Source of the DNA: Mesodorylaimus sp. YZB2_4 | Lineage: Eukaryota > Nematoda > Enoplea > Dorylaimida > Dorylaimidae | Assembly: GCA_030248295.1 (NCBI GenBank) | Contig: JASANH010001726.1 | Span: 310,001 to 374,000 of the forward strand | Length of the DNA: 64,000 bases | Direction: 5' to 3' | Part shown: piece by piece, positions 10,351 to 32,946 of the stretch | Numbering within the stretch: position 1 is the first letter of the stretch | How the letters are laid out: each line of letters starts with the position of its first letter | The notes under the pieces: model-generated | What the model saw: the letters and a program-made list of their open reading frames with translations, nothing else | Database searches by the model: none | Told to the model about the DNA's origin: nothing | Program-made: the position numbers and the translations under genes

Positions 10351-12326
10351 TTCTTATTATCACATCCTGTGCAATATAAACTGTCGCCGAGTGCCCCAAG
10401 AATACGGCCTGAAAAAGACTGAGTCTTCTAAAGCGTAAAAAAGATTTTTTTTAATACTAAAGGTATATTACTTCGAAAAACCGCAAGAAAAGTAATTGAA
10501 ACAAATTTCTGCTGCCTGTGAGTCATTCCTGTGTTTAAAGCGTGTAGTTACGAATATACAGTATGGGGCGGAGTAGAGCCCCACGTTTAGATCGTCCCAC
10601 AAGAAACAGCTTTGTGAACTCCCTCAACTCCGTATAAACTCTGAGAATGAAATATTAGCTACTTATTCTCTGAAGAGTCTTCTTTGCGAATTTTAATGAG
10701 CTTGATAATTTTCTGTTGTTTTTGTTCTTCCTTGAAAATAATATTTAGTGTAGTATACAGGACATCTGAATATTGCAGAAGAGGAACCGGGTATCTCCAG
10801 ATAATTTTGATGGTTTTGTAACTGTCTTTCGCATAAATTACTTTTGACAGCACTTTTGACACGGTTATGCGCCATTGCTTGAATGCATTATTCGTGGCAT
10901 TTGGAAAAAAATTATTGCTTGACAACGTTCTAGAGCGGATAAAAAATTTTGAAACTTGTAGAATCTTGCTTAAAATATGCAAAAGGTGTAAACTTATTCC
11001 TGGTGCAATAAACGTGAATAACCTATGGTTCTGCGATTTATTGCAGTATGTGGAAGACTTTTTCAGTAAATTCGCGTGTACAAAATAATTTTGCACGTGA
11101 AGGAAACGATCTAAAAGCATATCCGCAGTGATCACATGCTGTATTTAGAAGAAGCCCCCGGGTACAAACTATAAAAACCTATAATAAATGGGATTGACCA
11201 CGATAATTATAATCATTATTGTTTCATTATTGTTTCTTCATGGATGCTAAGATCAATCGTGCATAGAGCCACTAGAATTTTGTTTTCTTATTGTACAGTT
11301 AGCCTTGGGTTGATTTCACCTGGCGAGGTGTCTGCATGCAAACACGATTTTGGAATTGCTATGAGCAATTCCAAAATCGTCGAAATTCACAGTCCAAGTC
11401 CAGGCAATACTTTCAGTCAAGGACGCTTTCATGTTCTTCAGAATGGTTATTTATTTGCAGACAAGGTCACATAATTGTTTACAGTTTATGGGATTGGATA
11501 TTTTGGATGCACAGACTACAGGAAAAATACGCAATGCGCAAACTTGTATGCCTACTTTCTGGTGCTCACAATTTTGCGTATTACGCAATACGAACACGCA
11601 TACGCATTCAAATCGAGTATTTTTACCGACCGTACTTATCTTTTGCGATCCTGGAGCGCAAAAATGGAGTAATCCTGAGCCCGAATCCAGAATCCTTTAA
11701 ACCGAAAAAAAGATTTTTAGGGTACATTATGCCGGGCCCTTCGATGGTCGTGAGGAGATTCATTCGTTTAAAGACTCTCTCACGGATTGTGCAAATTAAA
11801 CGCGTGTGCAACTTTTTAATCAAAGTCGAGTCATAAAAAGCGGAATACTGTGGCTTATCAAAACAGGAAAAGAATTTAACAGGGCGAAGAACGGGACGGG
11901 GACTTAAAATGTAACTGAAATGATGCGTTTTTCAAACTGCCAAAGCACGCGAAGATGCTTTGCTCACGATCATGAGCAATCATGAAAAAGACAAGCTACA
12001 AACGGGCAGCTTTTTTTAAAGGGTTCGCAGGAATATGTAGGAAAAAATTACGTTCCAATTCTTGTCGAATTGATTTTTTCATCATGTTCAAATAACCAGA
12101 TTCTATCCAACTACATAATTATGCCCCTTGTGTCTCATATTATAGTTACTGCTAACGGAAGTTATATTGACAAAATATATTGAAAAATGTTTGGATATTC
12201 AGGAACTGCCGACAGTTGATAAACTAAAAAGGTTTTGCTGGTGGGGTGTATCAAACAAAATATACACTGAAAATTCCTGAAGACTTTTCTTTCAGCTTGC
12301 TGCAAGTTTTTTCTACAGGCATTACG
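10351..12326. other. Spacer upstream of gene A
   Basis: No gene is supported. A minus-strand open frame at 11135-10659 (158 codons, Lys/Ile-rich) and plus-strand frames at 11244-11836 lack recognisable domains, and neither shows convincing splice context. A perfect hairpin lies at 11344-11380. The last bases (TTTTTTCTACAG ending about 12319) form a likely trans-splice or 5' intron acceptor for gene A. Confidence 0.4.
11344..11380. repeat. Perfect 17-bp inverted repeat
   Basis: ACGATTTTGGAATTGCT is followed after a three-base gap (ATG) by its exact complement. The stem is long and uninterrupted, but the loop is too short for an ordinary microRNA precursor. It could extrude as a cruciform or be the remnant of a small foldback element. 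Confidence 0.7.
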
Positions 12327-15300
12327 ATGAGAAGACAAGGCTTGGCGATTGTTATTGCTCAATTAGCGGTCGGTGAGTCAAAGAAATCTCGGACAGATTT
12401 CCTAATGCGATACCGTAATCTCTCCAAACTTGAAACTCACTAGGACAAAAAATTTGAATTTCAGGATTTTGCTGACAATTTTTCATTTATTTCTAGTTTC
12501 GACTGCGATCCAGCCAGCCCCTGTGAATCTTTTTTGTTCCAACTGTAATTCTTCATTGACCTCATCCTCGAAAGACCAGCAGCAAGTCAAATGCGATCTG
12601 GGCAAGGTGGTTTGCAAATGCATGGTGTCATCGTGTAAGAAACAGCCCACCATCAATTTCTCCTACTGCGATGCCACCAATTACTACTCCAAAAGTCAGC
12701 TGAGCGAGTGGATGAAACGATGCAAAAAACTGCACTGCGAGCACGTGCAGGTCAGGGGCAGCAAGACTTGGTACATACTGCTGTACTCAAAATCCTTATT
12801 TCCCGGTCAATATCCAAATGCGAATGCCAAATCGCCCGTCATTGTCGCCAAGAAAACGGCCATTGACGCTTTCTGTAATGAAATCGGAGCTAGCAAGGGC
12901 CAGTACAAAATGTCAAGTGAGCTGGAGACAAAGTCGTCGAAGAAAGCAGTTGGTAAATCCACCAAGAAAGGAAGTGGGCAGAAAGTGAATGGCAAGGTCA
13001 CAAATTCGAGGCAATCACACACTGGCTACAAGCCACCAATACATGCACCCAAGGGGCGTGGGCCAGCTCGACAAAGTGCACCAAGGAATCGTTCAAGGGG
13101 ATCGCAGGTCAGAGACAGAGGCAGCGTTGGCAAGTATCGAACCCGAGCTCGAGAATTCGCGGAGGCATCAACCCGAAAGTCAATTGGTAAGGATGTTTGA
13201 TTGTAAGAAATCCTTAATTTCATTCAAAGAATGTTACACAGCCTCAAATGTAAAAGGAAGAACGGCGGGAAAAGGGACGGCGGGTGGAGCAAAATCGAAA
13301 ACTCGATCACTTTTAATCGCAGCAAGTCAGAAAATTCAACCAGAAGAAAAATACCGCCCTCGTAGCAGTTTTGAAAAGTCGGTCAGGAAAGATGATCGGT
13401 CAATGCCGAAGAAGAAAACTTCGAAACCTTCCACGAAATCCACGAAACTTTCAGATCGCGCTCGCACAATATTACCCAAGTCGTCGGGAAAACATGACCG
13501 TAATCCAAAAAGTTTTTCAAAAGTGTCAAAATCCGTTGCAGATCTTGGGCGAAGGCTGACAAAAACAGGAAAGAATAATACAAGGAACATAGCAAGGGTG
13601 ACACAAAATTTTAAGGTCTCGACGGTGGACAGAAGAAGACTGACGGGTGCTGAAAACAAGGCTAGAAAAAAGCAAACCGCAAAGCATCGAAATGAGACCA
13701 AGAATAATTATTTCCTGCCAAGGAGAGGACAGAAGTGTAAGGCCAAAGGTAAATTTTCGCCTCCTACCTGCCTAAGTTGACGGGATTTTTGTTTCATCTC
13801 TTCAATCTTGTTCCATAAGTGTGAAACCAAACCATCTGATTTACTGTGTTATGAATATATATTCGTGTTTTAGGTGGCCGTCAATGCGATGCTGTATTTA
13901 ACCCTCTCTCTAATAACAAATGTAAGTGCGCATGTTCTAGTTTTCGGCTGAAGTGATGCATGCGTACAAGCGCAAACACTCAATAGCGTATCTTCAAAAG
14001 CTTTGCTGTAGAAAAATCGAGATTTGTATGCCGCAAAAGGACAGTAGATTGTGCAGACGGTAAACACAAATTTCCAGATTGAGACCACTTACATCCATCC
14101 GATTTCCAAATGAATCGTGAACTAGGTCCAACTGTATTCAGTTGGGGTTTTATTGGATCCATACTGGATTCCAGTAGGATTTTCACCTTGGGGGTTTGGG
14201 TTATCAGTCCACTGAACGTGCCCTTGTTAATTTAAACGTCAGTGGAAGTTATTTTGTGAATCTTTTTTCCACTATTGTGCTTTCGTCAGCGTAAGTTCTT
14301 GCCCTTGATCAGAGTGAGTTGTCCTGGCAGCTGTACTGTTGATATGGATATCCATATCTATATCTAATCGATATCGATATCTTTAGACATATCGATAAAT
14401 CATTATCATATCCATATCTTTTTGAATATCCATATCTATATCTCTGTTATATCTTTTTACGCCCAAGACATCAATAAAAAAGATTTGGATATGAAAGAGT
14501 TTTCGAGGTCTGAAATTGGTCGTTTACCGCAAAAAAGAACCTGGTTTATGTCGAAAAGGTGCAAAGCGAAGGGCATCCATGGAGGACGTCAAGACCCCTA
14601 GTCGGTGGATGTCACCTGACTGGACCGACTGCCTTTCGCTTATCTAACGATCTATATCTTTTCGCCGTATCACATCAACAATAGTCAGCTGGCTAGGCGC
14701 CTTCTGACGCCGCTAACCTGCACGATCTTCTAGTCTTGCTGGAAGCGGTCAGTTTAGTCAGTTACCTAAGTACGTACCCAGGTTTTTATACTGTATTTTT
14801 GTGGGCTGGAGCCTGTTTTGCCTGTAGCTGGCCAGCAGTCAAACCTAATAAGCAGAACTGTGCGGAGACTGGCACACACAGCAGCGTCTCTGCGTGTCTC
14901 CACTTGGAGAACCTCCACACGAGGGCAACCTGGACTGGACATCCTGGCGTCATCGGCTGCCTCGGACGATGACGGGCGGGCTGTGTGTGAACCCTGTCGG
15001 TGTGCGACAGCCGAGACTGTCTCCTCGTTTGGCTTCCGTCTCTATACTCGGAGCACCTCGAAGGTGTAACACGTGCCTGATGTCGCCTGAGTAAAGGCGC
15101 CTGACTCCCGTCGGACGAATCTTGTGGGCGCGAAGGTGTGCCGCGGGGAGCTTGCGCACTCCGCATAAAACTCAGAGCAGCAATCTCCAACCTCTAGTAC
15201 TCTAATCGGAAGATTGGTGAAACAGCAACCCGAGAGGTTGACGACGTCCACTTGTGACTTTGGGTTTTATATAAGCGGCGCCGAGAAAAAAGTGTGCGCG

Positions 15301-18300
15301 CCGCATAGGCAAACTGCCGGCTCCAGGCACATGTAACACAGGTGCTGGGTGAGTCACCGATTTCCTGTCGACCATAGTCAGCGAGGGTTTATGGTTCGCA
15401 ATTTGGCTTCCATCACCAGGGATTGAACCCAGGGTGAGTCCAGCCACTCGCTCCCAAGCGATATTGAGGGACGAATGCCGAATCTTTGCACCACTGTGCC
15501 TACTTACCCAGTTAGCTTACCTGTCGAGAAGGGCTCTAGCCACTGTCATTATAAGATGCTGGGGTCCCTTAGGTGCCCTCAGAGAAGACGCGTCAGGTGG
15601 ATATCGGGCTTGAGTTCAGGTGGGTTAGGGGTCTGCCTCTCATGTCAGAATCCGTACCACAGAAGGCAGGTAGGTAGGGCTACCTTTTGGTAAAGAAGCT
15701 TACCTGGAGATGCGCAGAGACCAGGGAGGTGATGTGATTAAGCATGCACTTCCGTGGAAAGTCAGAGGATAAAGGATTGTTTTCATATCGTTTCCGTGAA
15801 CGTGGGTATCCGCATTCGATGGTGAAGGGTCACCACCTGGATCGGACTCGACCATTCCATATTGAAAGGTTCGAAATCAACTCGGGAATTCGAATGGCTG
15901 TCACGTTCCTAGTCAAAAAAATACATGTGACCCCTTCTCCCGGATTTTTGGCAGGCCTTGGATCACATTGGCGCCCCCCCCCCCCCGTTTGGATGCTGAC
16001 CATCAGACTCTCACCCACCGGGGGGGGGGGGGTCACAGTGGAGAGACCGAAATGGAACAGAGGCTTTTAAACAGTGTACCGGGTGGGTGAGACAACTGTA
16101 CAGACTGCGGTACACATATAGTAAAAATTAGCAAAATCAGGTTTTTTTCAGTTTCCTGACTTACATTACCGTTATTGACTTTTCATACAGTCATAAAGAA
16201 AAGAATCAGGCGAAATTCACGTTATTTGTAGATCTTAGCGAACTGCTTCAATTAAAATGCTCAGCATGCGCCATCACAGACACCAACAAGGAAATCATTA
16301 GAGAATACCCAGGCAGCGACGCAAAGTATTTTTCATGCGATGCTACAAAGAAAATTTCGTGCAAATGCAAAAATGCAAAGAGTTGCGGAGGGAAATTAGA
16401 AATTGTTACGCCATATTGTGATGCAACTGATTATTATTACAGCCCCTATAAAATCGAGCATTTACGAGCATGCAATAAAATTGCATGTGATGGCTTGGTT
16501 GCTGTAGACGGAAAGGATAATTACTGGATGGTCATATTAAGACAAAAGGCTTTAGCTGGGGTCACAAAATTTGGTGGAACCGAAACAATTGTCCCTAAGG
16601 ATGCTACAGAGTCTGGTATATGCGATCTGATCGGGCTTAAACCTGGGCTCTATGAAGTGCAAGGTACAGTAATCGCCACATCTGCTAGAATCTTTTGGTG
16701 CATTTACAATCTGCTCTTGTTTGTTCCAGCAAAAGACGGAGGCCGTGTGATTTGCACTCGATGTGCAAATAACAGAACAGCTTTTCCACAAGAAGATTTT
16801 TTATATATTTCGTGCTCAACGTGGGAGTTTGATTGTGTTTGCGAGTCGAATCAAATTTGTCAACCACATGCCATCAATGTACCTGTTTGTGACAACGCAA
16901 CATATTCAACATCCAAAGAACCAATAGCAGACCTTTGCATTCTCCAAGGCTGTAGCTATGCGCAAATGGGGTTTTTCGACAGTAAATGGTACTTGATGAT
17001 GGAAAATGGGAAGCTACAAGCTGGTTTAGTCCATAACCCTGCCTCTGGAAGTGTGATTGGAGTCGACGCAGGTACAACTCCGGAAGAATTTTGCCGGAAG
17101 CAAGGACGATACAGTAAGTGTACTTGACCAGGCAGTGGGAGACGATCTCTGTAAAATTGTTGTTTTAGTCAAAGTGGCTCCAGGCGGCACTGCTCCTCCA
17201 CTTCGTAAGTCATATATGACAGCTCTATAAACCATAATTTTTCATGCTCTCGTCGAACAGAGTACCTAACCATAAAACAACAACATCCCCTCTGCGTTGT
17301 TTCAGCAATCAGTTCGAGCAAACAGCTGAAATGTGTTCATTGTCACGATGACGATGAGGCTGTCAAAGATTATCCAGATCCCGATCGGCAACGAAGATTT
17401 GTATGCGATGTCATTCAGACTTGGTGTCTGTGCGCTAATGGAAACTGCGCCCTTTCTTCCCAACCTGGAAGTGGGGTGCCCATATCATACTGTAACACCA
17501 GAGTGGACGAATCGGTCGATATCGAAGGAGAGTGTGTCCAGTTTGGATGCAAATATGCTCAAATTGTTGACACTGCCAGTGGTCAGTGGTATCCTCTCCT
17601 CAGATCCGAACAATTCACCAAGGGTGGAATTATTCGCAGTGCAGGCGATACTTATAAAATATCTGTCTCGCTCAAATCTGATGAAAAAATGTTGAGTAAA
17701 GACGATGTCTGCGCGCGGATTGGTCAAGATATTACTTCTAAGTTAAAATCAGGTATTGACCTTATGCACTAAATTTTTTAACGGTCTTTTACGACTATCA
17801 AAACCAGTCGACAAGTCGCAACTTACAAAGCTGCCTTTTCTTCCGCAGGGAAATGTAGGAAACTCTTTGAGGGCAACAGAACCAATGCTACTATATAAGG
17901 CTGTAATAAGGAGATGCGAGCTGATATATCAACACTAATTTATCGAGGTTGATCGAATGATTAGTGCAAACTCTAAGCAGAAAGTTATGGCTGGGACTTG
18001 CATACGCTTCACATTTTATATCTAAATCCGGCCACTGACAAATGCTGCATTCAGTTCTCACATTTCAGGTGCAAACTCGGTGCCACAGACAACTCCGGAA
18101 ATAGTTTTTGGAAGGGTTCAACGTAAGTGTCATCACTTGTCTCCGGCTCATTAGGATGGCTCCGTCAGGATTTTCTTGGCTGAAGCCTCAGCCACCATCC
18201 AACCTCCTTTTGCCTCCAGCCAACGAGCAGTAAACCTTATAATGAAGGTTGTGCTAGGACCAGCACACACAGCAGCGTCCCTTTTTCGTCTCCAATAGGA

Positions 18301-19900
18301 GCATCCACGCGAGGCCATCCTGAACCAGACCCCAGAACCGTGTGGTTTTGCTTGTTTTAGAGAAGCATCCTTTGTGGTGCTCCCGCTGTGATGGAGTGCC
18401 CCAGAAAACACTGGCACCAGCGAGAGAGATAGCCGTACCCTGCTACACTAGCACACTCATCTGCGACTGCAAAACAGAAAATTGCAGCCCCAGTAGAAAG
18501 TGCCTTCCCATTTGTGGAATCGATTATGTGGCAGAAAGTGAGGAGAAAATGTGGTACGAACTATGTGCACTCGTCGGCTGCGAAATTCCACAGGTCAAAA
18601 TCGATATGGACTATGTCGTGTTCTATCGACGACCATACATCAGGGCTGGACTAGTACAGAGCCAAATCCTGGCAGAACACGTTCTGTTTGTTGAGAGGCA
18701 GTCTGACAAAATGTTCTGCTTGAAGCAAGGCAACTACAATTATCAGCAAGGGGCACCACACATAGGTGAGCTGAAGACACCTGCTCACTATTATTTTTAG
18801 ATGAAATTTGAAGGATTCTGATTGCACTTCCGGAAAGATTTGTGCTCTTCGTATGGTTGGTTACGTTGATCCTTACAGAATGCCTGTCTTCGTGAAATGC
18901 CTAAACTAATGCATAAACACTTTTAACACCTATTTCAGGAACAAACCAAGGCCTGATTATTTGTGAGGCAGAAGAATATGTCATAGGTATGGAACTGACA
19001 CTTCTGCAAGTACCATACAACATAGCAGATGACACAGCAGTTTCTAGTTTTCAGATATCCCGAAGTACGCGAAAAAGATACAACCAGTCCCTTCTGAGGC
19101 AGTGACCGAAGCAGTGATCGAACCATCGGACGATGATGTTAAATGCAAGCCTGTTCCATTACTTTTGCTGTGCGCAAACGCTAAAATTTTGAAACCATTT
19201 AGATTACGAAGGAACAGTGTTCTGCACAGGCTGCGACAACCCGAAATGCATTCAGTCCAGACGAAGGGCCAGACAAGCCGGAGAGTTGTGCTCTTACATT
19301 AAAGAAGGCCAGCAAAAACGTTTGGAGCCGATAGTGAAAGCAAAATGCGAAATGTTGACGGTTGTGTGCAGGTGCCAGAATTGGGATGAGTATAATAATA
19401 TCTGCCAAGACCAAAAGGAGGACCTAGCCAGGCGTCGTCAGCGTGTACGAGGGCAAAGGCGAAAACGCGAGTTCCGACAAACCAGACCGCGGGTAAGCGA
19501 GGAATACTGGAAACAAGATATCTGCGTGGTGAGCCACCAGACCTACTTGAATGCCACCACCGTTTGGGAGCAGCAATGCTTGGACATGAAGTGCGCCTAT
19601 CCTCAGATCAGCGTCAACTTTGATCAAGATCCAAATGGTGTCTTCTACGTTTTCGCATATAAAAGTTCTGGCGATGGAATAATGTTGCTGCCTGGCATGA
19701 TGGACACTGGTCCCAATAGAAAGGAGCATGGACTATTTTACATAATCGAACACCAGGCCATGGATAACTTCCAGTTTTGCCAGTTACTGGAAGTGACTGA
19801 CCCGCAAAAAGGCACTTTTTCCAGGCGATACGTAGCCGACGGATTGGACACGGCCTCGTGGGCTGCTCGTCGGAAAGCTAAAGAGAAGAAAACTCTGTGA
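12327..19900 (+). CDS. Gene A: secreted protein with six ten-cysteine modules and a basic linker
   Basis: Function unknown; family not recognised. Exons: 12327-12372, 12497-13186, 13242-13748, 13874-13921, 16232-16663, 16730-17113, 17169-17204, 17306-17752, 18069-18122, 18361-18765, 18939-18986, 19055-19144, 19203-19900. They sum to 3885 nt (1294 residues plus TGA), in frame throughout, and every intron is phase 1. A hydrophobic N-terminus (about residues 1-20) suggests secretion. Modules at about 29-142, 431-574, 575-702, 715-863, 882-1016 and 1063-1294 share CxxC, C-x6/7-C-x-C, C, C, C-x4-C (usually then x3-Q), FC or IC/VC. Residues 150-415 are Lys/Arg/Ser/Thr-rich. The last module has an RRKR motif. 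The intron at 19145 begins GC, not GT. The start was chosen because TTTTTTCTACAG precedes it by 8 nt; an in-frame ATG at 12430 in intron 1 is an alternative first exon. Paralogue of gene B. Confidence 0.8.
14335..14470. repeat. GATATC/ATATCC-rich low-complexity tract
   Basis: About 135 bp made of imperfect ATATC, GATATGG and ATCGATATCGAT words, highly self-complementary. It lies in the 2.3 kb fourth intron of gene A. Confidence 0.6.
14815..15500 (-). repeat. SINE-B copy in gene A intron 4
   Basis: Minus-orientation copy. It has the 'gtagctggccagcagtcaaacc' terminus, the 'cacacagcagcgt...ccacttggag...cctggactggacat' block, 'cgacagccgag.ctgtc' and a reversed B-box ('agggattgaaccc'). The segment 15085-15300 does not match other copies and may be inserted or diverged. 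Gene B has no corresponding insertion. Confidence 0.65.
15976..16031. repeat. Paired poly-C and poly-G runs
   Basis: A run of about 14 C at 15976-15987 is followed about 35 bp later by a run of about 13 G at 16020-16031. The two runs are complementary and could form a hairpin or separate G-quadruplex/i-motif structures. They lie in intron 4 of gene A. Confidence 0.7.
18155..18335 (-). repeat. SINE-B fragment in gene A
   Basis: Contains 'cagcacacacagcagcgtcc' and 'ctccaa.aggagcatccacgcgagg.catcctg.acc', as in the other SINE-B copies. It sits in the intron before the fifth module. The matching intron in gene B is only 59 bp, so the insertion postdates the A/B duplication or was lost from B. 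Confidence 0.6.
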
Positions 19901-20430
19901 GAAAATATTGCTGTGCAGTATAATGTTCTGCATTTCCGAGAATATTTATTAGTTATATTTTTATAAATAACTATTGGGTGGATGGTCATTCCGGACTTTT
20001 AGTTTTTTCTGAAACATTTGTCATGAGTTTCTACAGTATACCATCTTTGGCCGCACCATCATCACCTCCATTCTGGTTTCATAGTAAGCTCATGGCCTGC
20101 AAGCATGTTTTGCATATGAGCACAGGTTCAGGATCCGCCGTTCCGCTGAGTCAAAGACCGCACACAGTTTTTGAATCCCCGTCAATTCCGGCCAATTTTG
20201 TACTTCTAAAAGATGGGGATATCAGCGCAGTGTACGCATGGACCGACAAGGGTAAAGAAGAGGATGTAAAACAGATTGTTTGTTGGAAAAGGTACCCAGT
20301 GTCTCCATCTTGATCGATCGGTCCGTGAGTCACGACCGGATCAGATGGAGAAAATATCGGGTCGGATCGAATCATGTAAAAGATTTGTAATTTTTGAAGA
20401 ATCGATAACGTATCAATTTTTTTGGAAGGA
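19901..20430. other. 3' flank of gene A and spacer
   Basis: No gene seen. The flank of gene A is AT-rich, with ATATTTATTAG and TTATAAATAAC but no canonical AATAAA. A short GATCGG/CGGATC-rich tract at about 20310-20370 belongs to the repeat vocabulary of the foldback family. Confidence 0.4.
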
Positions 20431-22220
20431 CGCCCCCATAATAAACATACAGTATTTGTTATTATGGTGCAGTTGCACAAGCAGCGCCTCTCCCAAGGCT
20501 TTGCCACACTGCTCATAAATTGGCCTTCCACCAACCATGCGAACTGAGATATTAGCAGTGACTAATCTAGTCAAGGAAGTTAGCTGACAAACTCCCAGTA
20601 GTCGAGTAACAGAGGCCACGCAATAAGAAATTTTATATTTTTGTCTGCTATAAATGGGAACGTTCAAAGATGTAAAGGCTGCCCAATTCTAGGACGCTTA
20701 CCACACGCACGAGGTGCCATAAAGTGAATGGGATTACAATCCGTGCAGCCCAGCACTTGTGAAAATCTGGAAATACTGAGGACGGAGTAGCTGCTACAGT
20801 AACTTCTCATCCAACATCTTCGATGCCGTTCGATGCATAACAGCACCAATTTGCCTATGGACTTCGAAGTGGCTAAGTTTTCAAATGGATTTTTAATCGA
20901 TCACGGAAAATCCTTTTCTTTGAATGTGCTGACGATCTTCATGCAATTTATCCAAAACCTGATGCAACATTATGACAATTATGAAGGTTACGATCAAAAA
21001 CTGTGCAACAAATTATGCGAGTCTCAACGTGCAAAGCATGTCAGACTAACCCAGAGTCAGCAACCTGCGTAGGCTGCAAACTTTTAGTCTTCCGCGAAGA
21101 CTAACTCTTGCCAGTCTGACTGGGTTAGTCATCTTGGTAGAAGGAGACTGTCTAGCTTTCCTTTACTAACTCGCTTGCTAACCAAAAGTTGGCAAACTAA
21201 CCCGAGTTGGTCTCGTTGGTGGACGGCTGTGGTCTCAAGTAATAATAATGATGAGATGACTTGCATTGAAGCTCTATGGAAAAAAGGAAGCACCAATGCA
21301 GAATATTGATCTCATCTCATTCGTTACACTACATACAGTGGTTGGAGAAACATTGCCATTCACGGCCGGATCAGATCTGATCCGATCCGAAAACTCACCA
21401 TCCGAAAATTCGGATCGGATCATCCGATCTGAACCATCCGATCCGACATTCTATGGTCTCTGCAATAACCATTAGGCAAACAAGTAACTGATGCGCAATT
21501 TTTCTCCACTCACTCTATGTGTAATGAATGAGATGAGATCGATACTATGCATTGATGCTTCCTTTTTTGCTCATAATTAGAGTTACAAGTCATCTCATCA
21601 TTATTATTTGAGACCGTAGAAAAACATGGATGACACACAAGGGAACATCGCCAACCGTCAAGTCGAACTTCACAAAACCAAGAGTTGTAATGTTTGGCCA
21701 GGTGCAAAGGAAAGCTTTCTGCAAAATATCAGAGATTTCTGGCCAACTGATCAGCGATGGCCAAAGTCCTGACAATTTTTATTCTTGATAATAAGGAGCC
21801 CGATCGTTGAGAAAAACGCGCAGGGTTTTTTCCAAACTAGCTTTTCAGGTTTTGGGCTTCGATTTTGAGCTTCCAACACTCAGGTTTCGGTTTTCTCTCT
21901 CAAAAATATCCACCTAGAAACAAATTGCAATTTTTAGTTTTGTCAAGTTCGGCGTAACGGTTTGCAATTCTGCCTTTCTAAGTTTTGCAAATGTTTGGAG
22001 TCGGACGACAGAAATATTAAAGAGGAGTAAAAACGAAGTGGAAATATCCGTTTTAGTTCAAGTTTGAAGGTATTGAAGTTGTTGTTGCAGTCATATTTAT
22101 ATAAGCAGCATGGATCTTCTTTACATTATCAGCTTGTAAAGTACGTACAGCAGATCCATGATGAGCAGTGTGGCAAAGCTTTAAGAGGGGCGCTGCTTGT
22201 GCCATCATGTTCATGTCCAT
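20431..22220. repeat. Repeat block bounded by inverted 65-bp sequences
   Basis: The segment at 20458-20525 (containing cacaagcagcgcc...ctttgccacactgctcat) recurs in reverse complement at about 22150-22215. Between them lie GTTAGTC/GACTAAC-rich sequence (21046-21215) and the GGATCGGATC foldback element. No coding frame is convincing. This may be a nested non-autonomous element about 1.75 kb long. Confidence 0.45.
21231..21615. repeat. Palindromic GGATCGGATC foldback element
   Basis: The left arm starts GGTCTCAAGTAATAATAATGATGAGATGACTTG. The right arm, read backwards, is its near-complement and ends ...CATCATTATTATTTGAGACC. Arms are about 150 bp and flank a core of GATCCGATCCGAAA...TTCGGATCGGATC. 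Homology with the copy at 7920-8262 continues to about 21690. No ORF is present, so it is probably a non-autonomous DNA element. Confidence 0.75.
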
Positions 22221-22224
22221 GTTT

Positions 22225-22372
22225 TACCACATCACCAAACGCTTGTGCACAATGGACGATGAAGGGATACATTTTACACGAAATGATTTACCGGCCCGCG
22301 AGTCGAACACTCGACCTTAACTGCGCACCTGGCGTGAGAGGCAGACGCCTAACCCACCGGCCGTGCCATGGC
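22225..22372 (-). repeat. SINE-A copy
   Basis: Reverse complement of the tRNA-like head, with 'gcgagtcgaacactcgac' (B-box) and 'gcgcacctggcgtgagaggcagacgcctaaccca' (A-box arm). It abuts the LINE relic that follows. An upstream 'catcatgttcatgtccatg' resembles the simple tail of other copies. Confidence 0.65.
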
Positions 22373-22384
22373 ACTGTGATAATC

Positions 22385-22960
22385 TGTGATAAGCAAAGTC
22401 TCGCATTTTGCATCGGAGGTTGATTCACACTGCAAGTACTGTAAGAAGCAGGGAACAGATAAGCACGAGTATGTGTACCACGTTTTCGTCCAGTGCCCGA
22501 GGACACGTGAATTCTGGGAAAAATTGAAGCTTATGTTGAAGAAAGTTGACCCATCAATGAATTTGAGGTAGGAGAACCTACATCGCAAGCATATCGCCTG
22601 CGCTGCAAACATGGTTTTGCAGTCAGCACAGCGGTGCATATGGTATGCGAGGGCTGACTTCGAGGCGGAGGACAAGATAGTGGACTTGTGGGATGCACTG
22701 CGGAGGAGGTTGAAAGTTTTGATTAAACGAGCCAGGTGCATTCTGTCACCGCGCATGTTCCAGGATTATTTTGCAGAACCGTCTCTCGTGGATTCGTTAG
22801 AGTAGGGCGTTGAGAAATAACACACAAAAAAAGAAGAGAAAAGAAAAAGAAAAGAAAAGAATAAAAAATATAAAAATGAAAAAATTTTAAAAATGAACCA
22901 AAAGAAAGAAAAAAAGGGAAAAACAAAACATCAAAGAAATAAAAATAACAAATCGAATGG
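22385..22960 (+). pseudogene. 5'-truncated LINE with zinc-binding RT tail and A-rich end
   Basis: The first frame encodes CKYCKKQGTDKHEYVYHVFVQC...FWEKLK, the C-x2-C...H-x4-C zinc-knuckle pattern common at the C-terminus of non-LTR reverse transcriptases (zf-RVT type). After an in-frame stop, a second frame (about 22611-22805) continues with W-Y and basic helical residues. The sequence then passes into a roughly 130-bp A/G-rich tract (22825-22955) that looks like a degenerate poly-A tail. The reverse transcriptase and endonuclease are missing, as usual for dead-on-arrival copies. Confidence 0.7.
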
Positions 22961-23289
22961 TAAAGACTTATATATATACGGTTCCGTTTTGATTTCTGAG
23001 TGTGTCAAACCCGCCACTAGCGATGTTTTGTGAGAATGGTGGTGCCGGGTTTAGCTGCTAACATGACTAGCTGCTAACAGACTAACAAGGAAAGCAGAAA
23101 AGGATTAGATGAACAATCAATAAGACTAACAAGTGTCGTTTTGGAATGTTATTTAACGTCGTGCCTTGTTATAGTGAAATGACTTTCAAAAAACCCTGTT
23201 ACAATAAAATATACTGTGTGTTTGTCATGCGTAGGAACCTTTCGAAAAAAGTTCATGCGTAATTAATTGTTGAAAAAAATCCAAGTGCC

Positions 23290-23590
23290 TTTTTCACATG
23301 ATCCGATCCTAAAGTCATCCGATCCGTTCTGATCCGAAATTTTCCCCATCCGACAAACCGCCATCCGATCCGGTCGTGAATTGCAATATATTTAGTTGTT
23401 TGCCTGCGGTTATTGCAGACACAACTGGCTTAGAATTTCGGATCGAATGATTTTAGATTGTGGTTTTTCGGATCAGATTGGAGTGGACTGGATGGGATCG
23501 CGTATCCGATCCAATCCCATCCAATCGATATCCGATCCCATCCAATCCAATCCAGCCATGATCCGTGAACACACCACGTTGACATCCCCG
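23290..23590. repeat. CGGATC/GATCCG-rich cluster
   Basis: Dense GATCCGATCC and GGATCGG words with internal inverted pairs (for example ggatgggatcgcgtatccgatccaatcccatcc). The core resembles the foldback elements at 7920 and 21231, but the flanking arms are not recognisable. It lies in the A-B spacer. Confidence 0.55.
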
Positions 23591-24617
23591 CATCGTTTTG
23601 CAGTACACAAATTGGCGGGAATTCAAAACTGTAAGCGGCCTTCGAGTTAGTGGGGCGATGGATTGCACGAAACCAGACACTACAAGCGTCGAAAAAATGA
23701 ATGCATGGAATCACCAAAATATGCGTGACCTGTTGTAAAAATGCATCCCAAAGTTTAAGTCCTGTCGACGACATCAGGTTAGAATATCTCTTAAAAGTAA
23801 ACTTAGATCTTAAAAACAGTATTTTTAATGACATTTCCAAAGAATTTGTAATGTCGGCATGGAAAACTGTCGCTATCTTGACATAAGTAAGGGAATGGAC
23901 TCATGGAAAAAGTTTGTATTTTGGCAAAGCGCAGTTTTGATGGTGAAAATTAGGAAGCGTGTGGTCATCGTAATGCAAAACACAGCATCGTCATTCAAAT
24001 CCATGTGCGTTACACAGACGAGTTTCGAATGAATATACCATTCGCGTTTGTATCTTCTCTCCTGATTGCTTAGCGTTCACTTCGTAAATTATTCACACCG
24101 TTACAATTATAAATTTAGATGCATTAAGACTGGGACTTGAAGACGCAAAAAAGCAACATCTCGATGGTTGTGAGATGAATTCCACATAGGGCGCGAAGAA
24201 CCGTCTTGCAATATTTTTCTTTTAAAAATAATCATGATGCTTGGTTTTCAAAAAAAATCAGTTGAACTTTTTAATGAAAAACCCACTCAAAAATTGAGAA
24301 GTCAACATATCTTTCATGAGCTCATCCTCTGAAAAATCAAAGCAGGTGGTTGTTTTTTTGCGTATATGATATGCAGCTAAGGCTCAAACCTCATCGGAAT
24401 CTTGGAAAATGCTAGATTATGTGTCCTTTCTGATTCTTCTGGAAGTCTCGACACTGTTTCGAAAATTATTTTACAATGTGAGGACTCCTTATGCATGTTA
24501 TTTTACTGGAATATTCATCATATACTTTCACTATATTGGATCTTGATTGTTTACTGCTGCATACAGTTTTTTGACAGCTGGTCGTATTTTTCATAGTCGC
24601 AAAAGAAAAGTAAAATT
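23591..24617. other. Spacer upstream of gene B
   Basis: No gene recognised. A GTATTTTTCATAG at about 24584-24596 is a possible trans-splice acceptor for gene B, 20 nt before its proposed ATG. Confidence 0.4.
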
Positions 24618-27600
24618 ATGAACGAAAATTTGCAAGTAATAATAATAATTGAAATTATTGGTAAGACGTGATTTTATGCCTTCTATACCCTCGTCAAAAC
24701 TATATCTCAAATTGACCCGCATGACCATGTAAATTCTTGTTTTTTCTCGATTTTTTGGACAGCAAAGCCATACCTACTTTAGGTGTAGCACAATCGCATT
24801 CTTCTCGCCAGATATACTGCTCCCAATGCGCCAACTATAAATCTCCGCAGCAGAATCCAAACTCGCCGATTCCAGTCAAGTGTGATCCTGGTCAGTTGAC
24901 TTGTCAGTGTCAGACTCCCGCTTGTGCCAGAAAACCAAAAACAGTGATATCCTACTGCAATACTACGAGCTACTACTCCAAGAAAGAAGTGATGAAATGG
25001 CAAAAAAGTTGTCAAACACTTGCTTGCAAGAGTATGCAAGTTAAAAATGAGCGTTCATCATTGATTTTGCTCCCACGATTTACAGTTTCGCAGAAAATGG
25101 TCGAATGGACAAACCAGGACTTGTGTGATGAGTACGGAGGGACAAAGGGGCGATATGTATATCTGAGTAATTCTAAAAAAACATCGATGCCAAAAAGTAA
25201 AACAAAATCGACAAAATCATCTGCTCAAGGTAAGAAGCCAGGTCAAACTCGCGAAAAGGCTAAACCCACGGCGAAGAGGAAGCCCGTAGCAACTGCAGCA
25301 CGTCACCCCGATCGGTCATCTCCAAGAAGACCTCGCGGACGTTCTCAAAACCTCAGTGACAAGAACGAAAACTCGCCGAAATATGGTCCAACTCGAAGCC
25401 ATCGTCAGAAAATATACAGAGATCAAGCACTGAAACAGTCAGAACCTGGTAAGAAAAAAAATTTTTTAAGGTTTTTGCATATTACATACTTTTGTGCTGC
25501 TATGCGTATTTCGCCAGCAGACATTTTGAAAAGCATTTCAAGGGGCGCACAAGGATTATATACTTGCCTGCAGGAAAATAGAAGGGCCTAAGACGCATAA
25601 GAAAAAACTCACAAAAAGGCCTTAAACTTTGTAAGACATTGTCACTGTATTAAGAGGGGGTTTCTGAGAGACTCGACCCATGGCTGGCCCGTGTCACGTC
25701 AAATGACCGCGAGCAAAAGACCGCGCGACAAAAGACCGCGGTCATAAGACCGCGTGCAATAAGACCGCGTGTGGAAATGACCGCATGTCAAAAATACCGT
25801 CTGAACAATAGACCGCATGTATAAAATATCGCGGTGAGAAATATACTGTGTCATGACTCGACTGTTACCTACACCATGCTAATTTATTACATAAGTCAAA
25901 GAATTGGAAACTGAGATACTTACTGAATATTGTATCATGGCCATCAAAAATACACGAAAACATTAAATGCTAAAATTTAGCAAGTCAAAAATTAATTCGC
26001 GCCTATACGAGAACTAAAAGTTGTATTTATGAGCCAGTTCACGCAAGTAGTCCAAGATATCGCGATTCGCATAATCGTTGACGATCCTTTCAATTCTTTC
26101 TGCGCAATCACGATATCGTCGACGACTTGGAGGTGGTTCTTGGCCAGCGATGTACTGCTCGATCTTTGTCTCGTTCATGCTTTGCTCTCGTTTCAGACAA
26201 ATGAAAGAAACAACCACGACGAGTCGTCTCTGGGAACTCGGTTTCGAAGCTATTGATCGCCGCTTGTTCATAATCAGTCATAATCGATACTGGGGCCAGG
26301 TTTGGTCGCAGCTGTTTCAGCTCAGCCAACAGTCTCGTGTAAGTAGCTTCCATCTTGTTTGGTAATAAAGCGAAAACTGATGGAATCACGTTATTGTAAT
26401 GAACCCAATGGATCGTGTAAAGTTGCTCGAAAAGCGTTGGAGACGTTTTGAACGTACCATCTGCGTACCAGTGCGGACTGTGCGACAGTAATTCCAAGTT
26501 TCTTTGCGTCGAGAATATCAAAATTCGATTTGGACCTGGCCCAGAATCCCGCATCAAGAAAGGCAACCCTGCTTCCATCTGTTGATATTCTGGAGGAATC
26601 ACCAAATCTTCCAGCGATATCGGATTTGGTACAGCGCCAGTCGCTTGGCGACGCGACCTTTGTACAGTACGCTTCAAGCATGGCACAGATGGCAGCTGAC
26701 CCTGGACTGCTACGTTCAAGCCAACTGTTGCGGCTGCCACGATTTGATGAGTCGATTCTTGAACGCCGGCTGCTCGGTCCTTGATTTCAGAAACAATTTT
26801 TTTAAGAGACATTTTAGCTGGATCTGGCGCGTGGTTGTGATCGCCAGTGACTCGAATAATATCGATTTCAGTAGCATGAATTCGAGCGGGGCACTTGGCT
26901 TTCTTGTAATACGTACATTTCCAGATTGTCTTCTGGGCGTCGCTCTTCTCTTTCACGAATAAATAGCCATGGTGACACAGGAGATCTTTTCCTTTTTGAC
27001 TTTTGATAAATTCCAGAGCAATGTTTAAAACGCATACAGGACTGACCATGTACAAGGCCGAAAGGAAAGAAAAAATATTTACTCCGATTAGGATAATTCT
27101 ACAAGGTGCTCCTCGCATTCCACCGTGGCGACTCGCTGTCGCATCTAAGTACTGCTCGCGTATTCGCGTCGCGTCGCGAGGTCGGTCGTATTTACATGCG
27201 GTCTTTTTGCGTGAGGTGTTTTTGATCAGCGGTCTTTTTTCACGCGGTCTTTTGCACACGCGGTCATATGACCGCGGTCTTATGTCGCGCGGTGTTTTTG
27301 TCCGCGGTCTTTTGACATGTAACCGGCTGGCCACTCGACTTTTTTGACCCCCTTTGACCCCCGAAAGTACTCTCAAAACTGATTGTCTCGGCGAAGTAAA
27401 ATTTTCCTAATGTGCCTATATATGGAAATATAACACTTTAAAGGTAAAGAGCGGTCACTTTTGGTAAAAAACTCAAAACCCGCTTACTTTTGGGCCAAGA
27501 ATAATTTTTTTAAAATGCAGAAATGACCGCTACATTTCAAGGAATCCTAATCTTTTTTTAATATCAGCCTAGCTATAACCGTTAATGGGATATCTGAAAA

Positions 27601-30600
27601 AAACCGTTCGTGATCAGCCGTGATCAGGCCAATAACCGATAGGACGGAGAACAATTTTCAAAATTCCCGCCAATTCCGGTCAAATTTTGCACCGCTAACG
27701 CGGCTAAAGAAAAAACTGAGATGTCTCAAGGTATTCTGTACTTTGCCTATCGTGGGTGATGGCAGTATGCGAAGTCGTAGGTTTCGGCACCAACCCAAAT
27801 TCAAGCGGTATCCAAAACCATACTTTCCACAAGTCTTCCGCGCAGTGTGAAGTCGGCTAGTTTCGAAAACCGTTGTCTGCAGTCTGGCGCGCGCACCTGA
27901 CGACTTCGTCGGCGCGAAGCGCTGACGATGTGATCGGTACTAAATTTCTCCGATATTTTCGGTACCGTGAGCTACAGTAGTGATTGTCGGTATTTTATTG
28001 ACCCTATGCCCTGCGCAGGATCCTTTTGGTGCCCACTTTAGCTTCCGTTGATGGTCACCTGGGTCCTTAGCGCAGTTTATACTTGACTACTATGTAAATG
28101 TGGGGTAGTCTGCTGTCTGAGTAAATTAAAAATCCACTCAAGATCTGCGTGGTCATAGTCTATGCTGTATGTATCGATGTTTTCCTGATTTCAGCTCGAG
28201 GGCTTTGGGGGTGGCAGAGACAACTGTGTGATGGGGCAGGGATGAAAAAGTCAAAAACACCGCCCGCCCATTTGGGAGAACGTCCATTTCGCCACCTTCC
28301 AAGCCTGACTGCGTTGTCTCATATCGCCTTCACAGAAGTCTAGTAACCGATGTTGCAGATAAGCCTATCGAGCACCAGCAGGCTATAAAGGTACTGCGGC
28401 CATCTGGAGAGTGCTGGTACACATGTCTAACGTACATATCGGTGAAAGTGCGAGAGAGGCGCTGCTAGCTGCTGCCTACAATATCTGACGAGTAAGCTGA
28501 GCTGCAAGGAAGCGTTTGGCTATTCATTGATAGCCGTTAAAATTTGTGTTCAGGCAAAGATTAGAAAAATGGTTTGAAATAGCCCCAGTCAGAATTCGAA
28601 AATCTAAGAAATTCTGGCTACAGCAAGGCCACGTTTCCCTGAGGCAGCGCTTCCAGCGGGAATTTTAAATATGGGGCACCATGCTTGATGACAAACGCGA
28701 ATGAGTTCAGGCAGATGCGGTAATCCGCAACCTTGCCTCATACTCCTCTCAGTCAGTCCTCGCCTGGCTGGATCACAGGTCATTGCCATGTGCGCATTGC
28801 AAAGCAACACAACCAAACAACTGAAGAGTATTTTACGCATGCATGCATTTCGGTTTGGGCGATCGCGAGCCCTATCAATAATTGGCCAGGTGTGTTATCC
28901 ACTGAAATAGCATGGCATTATAAAAACGACAAAAAAGTTTCAATAAACTACCATAAATCGCTGGCTCAGGGTACCAAAAGTATCGGAGAAATTTGCAACC
29001 GATCACATCGTCAGCGCATCGCGCTGGAGAAGTCCTCAGGTGCGCGCACCTGCTTGCAGACAACGGTCTTCGAAACTGGCCGACTTTACACTGCGCGGAA
29101 GACTTGTGCAAAGTATGGTTTTGGATACCGCATGAATTTGGGTTGGTGCCGAAACCTACGACTTCGCATACTGGGGACACGTACGATAGGCAAAGTACAG
29201 AATACCTTTAGACATCTCAGTTTTTTCTTTAGCCGTGGAACACATTTGACAATCATGTTTTACCCTGGCGGGAGTCGAACCCCCTCCTCTAAGTGCGCGC
29301 CCAGCGTGAGAGGCAGACGCCCTAGGCCACAGACCCAGGCCAAGATTCTTTATTCAAAAGGCTTCCCCGCTCCAGTTTGATCGATCGATCGCTCAGTGCG
29401 CACACTACGTCACCCGACACCGCATTTGCAGCACAAAATTTTACTAGAATTGGCGGGAATTTCGAAAGTCTTTAAGTTGGGCGAGTGATGGATAGAACTC
29501 GCGAAATACATTGAGATAAATCACTTCAAAGGTTGAGCCAGCAAATACTCCATAGCACATTCATTTTATTGATTTTGGCCGAAACAATGTGACATTGTTA
29601 GCATGTTATGAGCCCGACAAAGAAGCGACCTACAGAACAATACCGACTCCATCAAAACCATCTCATCCTATCAACTATATATCTTGAAGCACGAGCCGAG
29701 CGTCCCGCCGCTTGTAGTAACATCGGCTAGATTCTGCAGATGATGGTTGCCCTGACCGCCACATGTATGGCCAAATTGTCCTGCGAATGATTTAGATGAC
29801 CTGAAAATCAGATGATAGCTCTTCTATCAGGCATGACTAACATAACTGCGTTTCTTTTTAATAGGTACGAAAAACCCACGCCCGACCGCGAAGCCTGCAA
29901 TCAGCAGGCCAAAAGGACCAACAAGTGGTGCTCCAGGTCGGAAATTGCCAGCCAAGCCGGCAAAGCCAGCACGTTCCAGCAGACCAGCCGTCGCAAAAAC
30001 GATGCAAAATCCTAGCCAAAAGGGAAGCACAGAAAAACCTCCACATCGCAAGATAAATACCCATTTTAGAGCAATTGCAACAACAACAAACAAAAAAGCT
30101 GAGAAGCAAATATTTTTAAAATCAGCGGCAGCCAAGACTGGGTTGGGCAAGGTCACTTCGGTTTTAACAAACAGAAGCAAAAAAGGAAACAAAACTGCTA
30201 CAAATACTGATGGAAGGAGGTCTGGTGTACGCGGCAGAATAAGTGGTTTAAATAGGACCAAGAAGATAGCCAATGCGCCGATCACCACAAAAAATACCAG
30301 AGGCCGATGCGGCGCAGGTATGAAGTGATACCTATATCAGCCCAACATCAAGCAAAAATTAATTTTAGGTGGACGAAAATGCGATGAAGGCGACCTCGAA
30401 GAAAAGCCGTTCACTTTGCCTCGTAAATATCGGTTCGTTATCATGATGCTACTTAGCATGAGTAACTGAAGTTTCCATTCAGCTATCAGCCCAAACAAAT
30501 GGCTGAAATGTACATATTGCAGTGGCGATGAAAGATCAGTCAAAGATTACCCAGACCAAGAAAAAGAAAGGCGATTCCTTTGTAACATAACATCAATCTG

Positions 30601-32946
30601 GTGTCTGTGCGAAAAAGGAGCTTGTAGTCTCTCTTCTACACCCGGCAGTGGTGCGCCGATCTCGTTTTGCGATTTCTCACTTCGAGTCGTTGACCAAGCA
30701 TTCGATATGCAACAGCCGTGCATAAAGTTTGGCTGCAAGTACGCTCAAGTGGTCGATACAGCCACTGGCCAATGGTATCCACTTCTTAGCCTTGTAAATT
30801 TCACGAGAGGTGGCATCATACGAACAGCTGGAGGTGGCTATAATGCTACTATTACTGTTCCAGCTGGTAAAAATATCACGTCTACAGCGAGTGTGTGTAA
30901 GACGATTGGACAAGATATGACTGACAAACTAAAATCAGGTTTGTATATGTTCATTGCCCACTCAGAAGCGGCTGCTCATATTGGCACAAACAAGCCGTGT
31001 TAGAATCGTTCATTTTAAGTCACTCATAGGCTTACTACCTTCGTATGTCCGAAAATGTTGCTCTTTTAGCAGGGATACCAAATGCAGCCACAACGCCAGC
31101 ATTAGTGTACGGAATGGTTCAGCGTAAGTACTGTCGTTTTTCGTATTTTTCTTTGATAAGATACCGCCTTTCGAATTATCAGAAAAGCACCCCCTGTGGT
31201 GTTCCAATTGCGATGGAATAGCTCACAAAACATTGGCTCCAGCAAAAGAAATAGGCGTGCCCTGTTATCCTGGCACCGTAATCTGCGAGTGTAAAACTAA
31301 GAAATGCGATCCTGAGAAAAAATGCCTGCCAATTTGTGGAATAGATTTTGTGCCTCAGAGTGAGGAGGACTCGTGGTACAAACTTTGCACTGCAATTAAC
31401 TGCGAAGTACCCCAAGTCAAAATTGGCAACGATTATGTCGTGTTTTATCGGCAGCCATTCATCCGAGCTGGACTTGTTCTCAGTTGGTTGCTCGAAGAGC
31501 GAGTCGTATTTCACGAAGGGCAATCCGCAAAAACGTTTTGTTTGAATCAAGGCAATAACGAATACGACAACCCGCACAAAATACCGAAAATAGGTAACGG
31601 CTTATTTTTTATAACCGAAACATCAGAACCAAAGCAAAGCATCCTATTTTAGCTTTGGAAGATGGTGGAATTACCTGCAAAGCAGAAGAATACGTGATAG
31701 GTAGGTGCGAATTTTGGTAATGCTCCTCAGAAGAGAAGAGTTCCTAACCATGGACCATTTCACAGCTTCCAAAAAATTTGTAAAGGTACTTCACAGTAAT
31801 CTTCACTGTCCCCACTTACATCAAGCATAAAAATGCCCTCTTTGTCCTGTGCACATTTCGTCCGTTATTTTAACCATGACCCCACCACGACCTATCAGAA
31901 AAGTCATAGCGGGACCCATGGATTTGCCAGTCCATTTCCGCGCAGGGCTATGAGGAGAACGGTCAACGTGCCATTGAGGCTTTAGCGACGCCCGCGGGAA
32001 AAACAAAAATTCAAATTTCCATGAACTGTGATTTGGCTTTCACGCCCGACATTTTTGTTTCATTCTTTTTCTGCTCATTGTAGATTTACCGAGAGATCCA
32101 AAAAAGATAGAAGATATTCCTTACGAAACCCAGCCCCAACCCACAACAGCACCTCCAGACAACATTGGAAAATGTAAGAATGGAATTGAAATCTATTCCA
32201 AACATTGTCTCAGACACTTTTTAGATTACGACGGAGAGGTCCGATGCTCAGGATGTGATAACCCAGATTGCATCCCTTCAAGAAGGAGGGCGAGGCAGAC
32301 TGATAAAAAGACCAATGCTGATTGCCGATGGTATATTCCACAGAACCATATCCTAGATGCACTAATAAAACCGATACAACCTACAGCGTTAGTGAAATGT
32401 CAAATCGGGACAGTGGTATGTAAATGCAAGAACTGGGACGCTGATAGCGGTCAATGTCTGTCACCAGATCAACGAAGACGACGTGGAAAAGTGCAGCGAA
32501 AGAAACGAGAGTTTCGACAGATTAAGAAATTTGGTCACGTTGAATACAGGAAGCAAGATTTTTGCTTGGTGACACGCGACGCGTATGAGAATGTTACCAC
32601 TGAATGGGAACAACAGTGCATGGATATGCAATGCGCCTATCCACAACCTCATATCGAAAACATTAAGCGGATAAAAGGAGGTGCTCTTAACTTTTACACA
32701 TTTGCTTACCAAGACGCGTCTGGAGTGCTATTAATGCTGCCTGGATTGATGGACGCCGAAGGCTACGAGCTAGCTGCTTACGACTATAACATCATCGAAC
32801 AGCAAGCACTAACGGCCAGTGATTTCTGCCAAGCACTGGAATTGTCAACTGAGACAGGAGAGAAATTAGTGGGACGGTATCAATTCGACTATATTACTTC
32901 ACCCGAGTGGGAAAGCCGACGTAGGCACAGGGGCAGAGTGGCCTGA
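24618..32946 (+). CDS. Gene B: secreted protein with four ten-cysteine modules and a basic linker
   Basis: Paralogue of gene A; function unknown. Exons: 24618-24660, 24783-25448, 29865-30317, 30369-30422, 30483-30938, 31073-31123 (or from 31070), 31183-31593, 31653-31700, 32084-32173, 32225-32946. With the 31070 acceptor they sum to 2997 nt (998 residues plus TGA). All introns are phase 1, and five exons have exactly or nearly the length of their A counterparts (48 and 90 nt identical). A hydrophobic N-terminus (VIIIIEIIG) is followed by module 1, a Lys/Arg/Thr/Pro-rich linker (exons 2-3), then modules equivalent to A modules 4, 5 and 6. Modules 2 and 3 of A are absent. The last module has RKKR. 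Identity to A is strong in modules 4-6 and weak in the linker. The first exon is the least certain part. Intron 2 (25449-29864) is swollen by a MULE and a foldback element. Confidence 0.78.
25682..27332 (-). mobile_element. MULE DNA transposon with FLYWCH finger, internally deleted
   Basis: Element 25690-27324 flanked by an 8-bp direct repeat, GGCTGGCC (25682-25689 and 27325-27332), a plausible target-site duplication. Both termini carry inverted arrays of GACCGCG spaced 10-20 bp for about 150 bp. The minus strand encodes a FLYWCH finger (about 27050-26810: HHGYLFVKE, WKCTYYKKAKCPAR, HNHAP) and the start of the MULE catalytic domain (HWYADGTFKTSPTLFEQLY, SVFALLPNK, IMTDYEQAAI, RRGCFFHLSE). 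About 150 residues present in the 8.3-9.6 kb copy are deleted here, and the C-terminal RIERIVNDYANRDILDYLREL follows in a different frame (26271-26014). It is therefore probably inactive on its own. It lies in intron 2 of gene B, in antisense orientation. Confidence 0.85.
27653..29475. mobile_element. 1.8-kb element with long inverted terminal arms
   Basis: The left arm (about 27653-27975) and right arm (about 28964-29240, continuing 29428-29475) are reverse complements with few mismatches. For example 'ctaaagaaaaaactgagatgtct.aaggtattctgtactttgcctatcgt' recurs inverted. The outermost block is CAAAATTCCCGCCAATTC. The right arm is interrupted by a SINE-A insertion (about 29238-29428). The roughly 1-kb interior has no credible transposase frame, so this is probably a non-autonomous foldback-type element. 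It sits in intron 2 of gene B. Confidence 0.75.
29238..29428 (-). repeat. SINE-A copy inserted in the foldback arm
   Basis: Reverse complement tRNA-like head ('ctggcgggagtcgaaccccctcct...agtgcgcgcccagcgtgagaggcagacgcc') preceded by 'acatttgacaatcat', as at 39855. It splits an arm that is continuous in the left copy, so it inserted after the foldback element formed. Confidence 0.75.

Follow-up and report, generated by a model that had tools for sequence, protein, structure and literature searches.

A repeated ten-cysteine module, probably extracellular, and its basic arm in two adjacent genes of the nematode Mesodorylaimus sp.

Two adjacent genes of the dorylaimid nematode Mesodorylaimus sp. 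YZB2_4 raise the question of whether the cysteine-rich unit from which they are built is a new extracellular module or a known one in diverged form. Both genes lie on the plus strand of the window, by which we mean the whole stretch of 64,000 nucleotides analysed (C41:310001-374000 of a genome searched as 1067 contigs and 145 Mb). Gene A carries six and gene B four modules of about 120 residues, in which the cysteines follow the order C1-x2-C2 ... C3-x6/7-C4-x-C5 ... C6 ... C7 ... C8-x4-C9-x3-Q ... C10. A first-pass annotation of the window had described ten modules on one scaffold, and in the alignment all ten (10/10) keep every one of the ten cysteines. The full spacing pattern, which was composed after the data were seen, has 10 matches in the six frames of the window, none in 100 Markov-2 resampled windows, and none in 200 residue-shuffled ORF sets.

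Gene A was modelled from stop-to-stop frames and splice sites, on sequence alone, as 13 exons at 12327–19900 that encode 1267 amino acids. Exon 1 (12327–12372) supplies the ATG and an N-terminus that by eye is hydrophobic and signal-peptide-like, and ends in a GTGAGT donor in phase 1. Module 1 (12526–12897; E value 1.3e-33 of its ORF against the module profile described below) is encoded by exon 12497–13186. It is followed by a polycationic tail (12910–13748) of 234 residues and net charge +52, formed by the rest of that exon together with exon 13323–13748, and by a 48-nt linker exon with one Cys (13874–13921), equivalent in position to the 54-nt exon at 30369–30422 of gene B. Modules 2 (16249–16641; exon 16232–16663), 3 (16744–17109; exon 16730–17113), 4 (17323–17730; exon 17306–17752), and 5 (18372–18734; exon 18361–18765) were each recovered by splice model and profile with ten cysteines present. 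Between them, the splice model places linker exons of 36 nt (17169–17204) after module 3 and of 54 nt (18069–18122) after module 4, the latter equal in length to 31070–31123 of gene B. Two further linker exons of 48 and 90 nt (18939–18986 and 19055–19144), the second with a GC donor, the one such donor used in gene A, are matched in length by gene B exons. Module 6 (19217–19795; exon 19203–19900, stop codon 19898–19900) is a long variant with a basic insert; it matches the profile and, like module 1, keeps its ten cysteines.

The gene B model, likewise derived from the sequence alone, spans about 24618–32946 and has 10 exons encoding 999 amino acids, the probable first exon (24618–24660) being the least certain. 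Module 1 (24809–25156; exon 24783–25448) matches the profile, with the tenth Cys just past the end of the match. The polycationic tail (25159–30317; 249 residues, net charge +55) is formed by the end of exon 24783–25448 and exon 29865–30317, with an intron of 4.4 kb within it, and is followed by the 54-nt linker exon with one Cys (30369–30422). The remaining modules match the profile with ten cysteines and are the counterparts of modules 4 (30503–30916; exon 30483–30938), 5 (31194–31559; exon 31183–31593), and 6 (32239–32850; exon 32225–32946) of gene A. Linker exons lie at 31070–31123 (54 nt) and, by the splice model, at 31653–31700 and 32084–32173 (48 and 90 nt), so that linkers of 54, 48, and 90 nt are common to both genes. 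The two products share 49% identity across modules 4–6. Hydrophobicity at the N-terminus, judged by eye, is present in the first exon of A and weaker in that of B. Taken with the paired cysteines, the hydrophobic first exon of gene A suggests that the A and B proteins are probably secreted, although the weak signal exon of gene B is a counterpoint.

Gene B thus lacks counterparts of modules 2 and 3, and its 4.4-kb intron splits the arm upstream of the place where these would be expected. A tblastn search of that intron with the gene A product detected no remnant of either module (E value ≤ 1). The intron contains a FLYWCH-MULE transposon (25681–27333; E values 1.8e-17 and 1.1e-15) with inverted ends of about 140 bp, and a second element-like pair (27701–29235) of inverted repeats of about 300 bp that are 87% identical. 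The differing module counts, six in A and four in B, together with the intron transposon are consistent with module loss by rearrangement. A decayed eleventh module, closest to module 6, was read by eye on the minus strand at about 9780–10427; it has an in-frame stop and has lost the C-x-C. It was detected by tblastn with the module 6 region of gene A (E value 4.8e-4), and its C-terminal half matches the profile. A diverged relative of the FLYWCH-MULE element (8270–9495) adjoins it.

The family is larger than could be seen from the window. A profile was built from the ten window modules, and its iteration covered the window together with 19 further stretches of this genome. The profile recognised at least 70 domains, which lie in 69 of the 2576 ORFs (E value ≤ 1e-4); 11 of the domains belong to the window and 59 to the other stretches. 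All ten cysteines stand at aligned columns in 49 of the 70 matches; a separate realignment gave ten cysteines in 48 of 67 distinct copies, several of the others being clipped at the end of the ORF or of the match. When the same ORFs were reversed, none of 2576 reached an E value of 1e-3 (best 0.47; 54 at E value ≤ 10), and among 316 ORFs from eight Kunitz loci none did so either (best 0.041; 41 at E value ≤ 10). Genome searches with protein queries (E value ≤ 1e-3) placed matches on 14 contigs (C10, C15, C23, C38, C41, C73, C89, C103, C107, C191, C287, C299, C451, and C470), those on C38, C287, and C470 being weak (3e-4 to 8e-4) and unconfirmed, and the profile search added C154. One such genome search alone gave 39 places at E value ≤ 1e-3, four of them within the window. 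The profile-based counts leave out further stretches on C10, C103, C107, C89, C299, C38, C287, C470, and others, and the figure of 70 modules is therefore a lower bound; at a C10 locus (L051), for instance, two more ORFs match the profile (E values 1.4e-19 and 3.4e-19). A prokaryotic source was considered and rejected, 0 of 10 pattern matches being confirmed in the search of genome contigs.

Outside the cysteines, few positions are held across the family. Of the flanking residues recorded in the first-pass annotation, the Trp ahead of C-x4-C recurs in 58% of the 70 genome-wide matches, and the Gln after it, four residues past C9, in 96%. A Gly within a '(Y)PG' turn, absent from that earlier list, is near-invariant (97% of the 70 matches), and this Gly and the Gln are the only non-cysteine positions conserved above 90% in the family alignment. 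This bears on the view that the proteins are inhibitors or antimicrobials, i.e., basic, multi-headed, disulfide-rich molecules that act by blocking proteases or by damaging microbes. Nematodes commonly have cystine-rich inhibitors with several heads, and at least 150 Kunitz matches, many of them clustered, were counted in this genome (150 of 211 candidates were scored); the polycationic arm would also suit such a role. The modules, however, display no conserved reactive-site-like loop, since besides the cysteines only the Gln and the Gly exceed 90%, and we regard an inhibitory or antimicrobial function as unlikely.

The cysteines themselves are retained in the family alignment at frequencies from 85% (C6) and 91% (C5) up to 100%. 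Losses were counted in 67 realigned rows after removal of three, of which two lacked the region and one was a near-copy; a cysteine shifted by a few residues was scored as present, which applied to C6 in three rows and to C5 in one. C5 and C6 are missing together in 3 of 64 modules, while C5 is missing without loss of C6 in 3 of 64 and C6 without loss of C5 in 2 of 64 (one-sided Fisher p 0.0045, a statistic that rests on hand assignment and ignores the relatedness of the modules). The joint losses suggest a C5–C6 disulfide bridge. C1 and C8 are both missing in one module (L039:6695-7093), a single joint loss that in the same manner suggests a C1–C8 bridge.

Exon structure gives the module a further characteristic. 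All introns of both predicted gene models are in phase 1, and the lengths of their internal exons are divisible by three. Across the genome, the best-scoring splice sites were taken around 53 distinct modules, each keeping nine or all ten cysteines. Phase 1 holds for the best donor of 46 of the 53 (binomial p 1e-15 against one third) and for the best acceptor of 39 of 52 (p 2e-9), related copies not being independent in either test; 34 of 53 modules are symmetrical 1-1 on both sides. With the window modules excluded, phase 1 is found in 38 of 43 donors and 33 of 42 acceptors. This is the signature of a class 1-1 unit, and in its flanking phase 1 introns, including every intron in the models of A and B, the module is like the class 1-1 modules known for shuffling. 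Coding by one symmetrical 1-1 exon would allow modules to be duplicated, lost, or shuffled in frame. These exons offer a clean case for the study of module gain and loss.

A comparison with known families was the check that the first-pass annotation had proposed, having failed to match its scaffold to named domains. That mismatch holds: the profile search against Pfam gave no consistent family match, and no strong profile match over all ten cysteines appeared. When 49 modules were searched singly against Pfam, 20 families were matched at E value ≤ 1, each by one module of the 49 (best E value 0.012), and the ten window modules gave 5 families, each by one of the ten (best E value 0.007). No Pfam match over the curated cut-off was found in nine module-bearing ORFs. 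In NCBIfam, 8 families were matched, each by one of the 49 modules, and Rfam gave no family in the window at gathering score. In a protein database, residues 460–1267 of gene A had no match at E value ≤ 10 among 3770 candidates, and the ten-module alignment none among 697; candidates had to share five-residue words with the query, by which distant relatives may be missed. The same database returned 1461 relatives, clade I nematodes among them, for a neighbouring GT10 ORF used as control. The conclusion that the module is matched by no library tested is supported, and 'undescribed' is meant within these libraries and searches, other nematode proteomes being covered by the word-based search.

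The module might belong to a nematode extracellular domain family that is already known (ET, DB, EB, TIL/NAP-type, frizzled CRD, or the like), and have diverged so strongly as to escape recognition by profiles. Several of these domains are close in cysteine number: the ET module, which is extracellular in nematodes, has 8–10 cysteines, the frizzled CRD has 10, and the secreted NAP/TIL inhibitors of nematodes (NAPc2 type) have ten in about 75 residues. In the 49-row alignment, moreover, family members share only 15–28% identity with the first row, a divergence at which kinship with other families could go unseen. On the other hand, no Pfam-A family was matched by more than one of the 49 modules, and the genome-wide profile retains a cysteine spacing of its own. 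The ET module (PF01684), although alike in its nematode and extracellular occurrence, shows no profile match here (none across the whole genome at E value ≤ 10, nor any among the 49 modules), and we have rejected this identity. The NAP/TIL inhibitors share the ten cysteines and the secreted, nematode character, but differ in length (about 75 residues against about 120 here), and the Pfam TIL family gave no match among the 49 modules. In our judgement, such a hidden membership is improbable, though somewhat less so than an inhibitory or antimicrobial function.

Among systems in the literature, the dorylipophorins (p43/Tm-DLP-1, Ts-PCHTP, and Dr-P44) of clade I nematodes are likewise cysteine-rich, internally repeated, and secreted, and p43, the structure of which is 6QIX (PMC12238268), binds matrix proteoglycans (PMC12238268, PMC2954182, PMC5615634). 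In the portions of these papers available to us, the consensus of their pcd domain contains CG, CGxC, and CKCCC (PMC2954182), a motif that by eye differs from the present scaffold; no p43 chain was among the PDB matches, and a dorylipophorin/PCHTP identity was rejected. The Kunitz/DC multi-domain proteins of C. elegans resemble A and B in being large and secreted, with many tandem Cys-rich modules, but as far as the accessible text describes them the module is a different one (PMC3534327). In the accessible parts of a literature that was mostly open-access and without most preprints, work on cysteine-rich or ten-cysteine nematode modules and on poly-cysteine proteins described none that was recognisably this scaffold.

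Profile searches of the PDB raised a distant relationship to the RNase A superfamily. The only matches at E value ≤ 10 were two RNase K6 sequences for the ten-module profile (E values 0.34 and 0.36) and, for the 49-row profile, two sequences each of RNase 7 and RNase K6 (0.12 to 0.26, the best value belonging to RNase 7), and the two families have a similar C-x6-C-x6-C-x10/11-C stretch. These matches are not significant, the best scoring 15.2 bits with a composition-bias correction of 8.0 bits, and the profile-profile probability (hhalign) of 0.25% for bovine RNase A is no better than the 0.30% of a lysozyme control. The catalytic residues of RNase A are His/Lys/His, while the consensus of the 70 matches has no conserved His. 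The relationship was rejected as most improbable.

The basic arm, which is not mentioned in the first-pass annotation, is the second characteristic of the family. Seven genes, namely A, B, and those at five other loci, carry after a module a Lys/Arg-rich tail of 234–270 residues with a net charge of +52 to +70, its ends delimited by hand. The arms are rich in Lys, Arg, Ser, and Thr, with 25–31% Lys+Arg and 2–7% acidic residues, and are similar in composition and length in all seven. At the five loci other than A and B, arm and module stand in one open frame. A short basic motif with Cys and Gly closes the arm in six of the seven, the C23 copy being without the Cys, and tail-like extensions occur at two more loci (L029 and L041). 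On a tree of 64 modules, nine of the ten arm-labelled modules share a fork (92/79) with four armless modules, the tenth (L041) falling outside, and a single change sets the ten arm-labelled modules apart from five that resemble module 6 (78/68, with 49 rows left uncounted). The head-module-plus-arm design plausibly arose once, if with weak support.

These features, together with the purifying selection on two recent duplicate pairs that is described below, lead to the reading that we prefer, and to which we give about an even chance: A and B would belong to a nematode family of modular extracellular proteins that is undescribed and strongly expanded, and whose members act by basic-arm tethering. 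Each module would be a unit of about 120 residues with five probable disulfides, coded by one symmetrical phase 1-1 exon. Several genes would present a head module followed by the long, low-complexity, strongly basic arm, to which A and B add a string of further modules, and the proteins would be secreted in this bead-string form. The arm, which we infer to be disordered, would bind acidic polymers, be they glycosaminoglycans, mucins, nucleic acid, or those of the eggshell or another matrix. The varied modules, for their part, would offer a rigid multivalent surface. As a counterpoint to tethering, the basic composition could also serve cross-linking or the binding of mineral or nucleic acid.

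Cross-linking is the core of another explanation, in which these are structural matrix proteins of cuticle, eggshell, gland secretion, or adhesive, with modules and arm cross-linked. The Lys/Arg/Ser/Thr-rich arm, alike in composition and length in seven genes, would fit such a material, as would selection on recent copies. A segmental duplication at C23:272001–302000 (L033–L035), which carries several modules, is recent (98% identity across 4.8 kb, with about 85% across another 1.7 kb), and a stop shortens the head module of its second copy. Two diverged module pairs within it gave dN/dS values of about 0.47 (Fisher p 0.037) and about 0.28 (p 0.001), so that at least two duplicate pairs are under purifying selection; the other five pairs, with 0 to 4 differing sites, are uninformative on selection. 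Both values are below 1, and positive selection was rejected for these pairs. Against a structural role stands the great divergence among the modules (median end branch on the module tree 0.54), which is unusual for a structural repeat, and we hold this explanation to be unlikely, about on a level with that of a diverged known domain.

A bolder form of the tethering proposal may be put forward tentatively, with less confidence than the proposal itself. In this form, the module would represent a new extracellular cystine fold, so far of a single nematode lineage, spread by exon shuffling and tandem duplication until it numbered 70 modules or more, several of which bear a polycationic arm like that of histones, and the secreted design of head, sticky arm, and string of beads would have no known counterpart. 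Nematodes invent new extracellular functions in cystine-rich secreted families that are specific to a lineage, and a many-copy family missing from the tested domain libraries leaves a visible part of the secretome of this worm unannotated. The ten-Cys profile and the rule of the basic arm can be used to scan other early-branching nematode genomes.

Other observations concern the genome and the rest of the window. The cuticle-collagen N-terminal domain PF01484 has 133 matches in the genome and none in 14 control genomes. To our knowledge, this domain is nematode-specific, and we take the genome for that of a nematode. The relatives of the GT10 ORF described below hint at a clade I or otherwise early-branching nematode, although they do not establish it. 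GH12, a marker of plant parasites, is without a match in the genome, which does not settle the lifestyle. Downstream of gene B, the window contains a gene with an IgGFc_binding domain in two pieces (41625–44979; E values 4.8e-8 and 1.9e-29), a piece of an amiloride-sensitive sodium channel (ASC; 47432–47995; E value 4.3e-11), and, on the minus strand, a seven-transmembrane receptor (54930–56168) with weak 7tm_1 and Srab similarity below the cut-off. The GT10 ORF encodes a fucosyltransferase (51082–52683), the top relatives of which are unnamed assembled contigs (43–48% identity). Among the best 120 of its 1461 relatives, the best named match by E value is a firefly record that may stem from a contaminating parasite; within the same 120, the top-scoring proteins of Soboliphyme, Trichinella, and Trichuris are each 40% identical, with arthropod and mollusc proteins alongside them.
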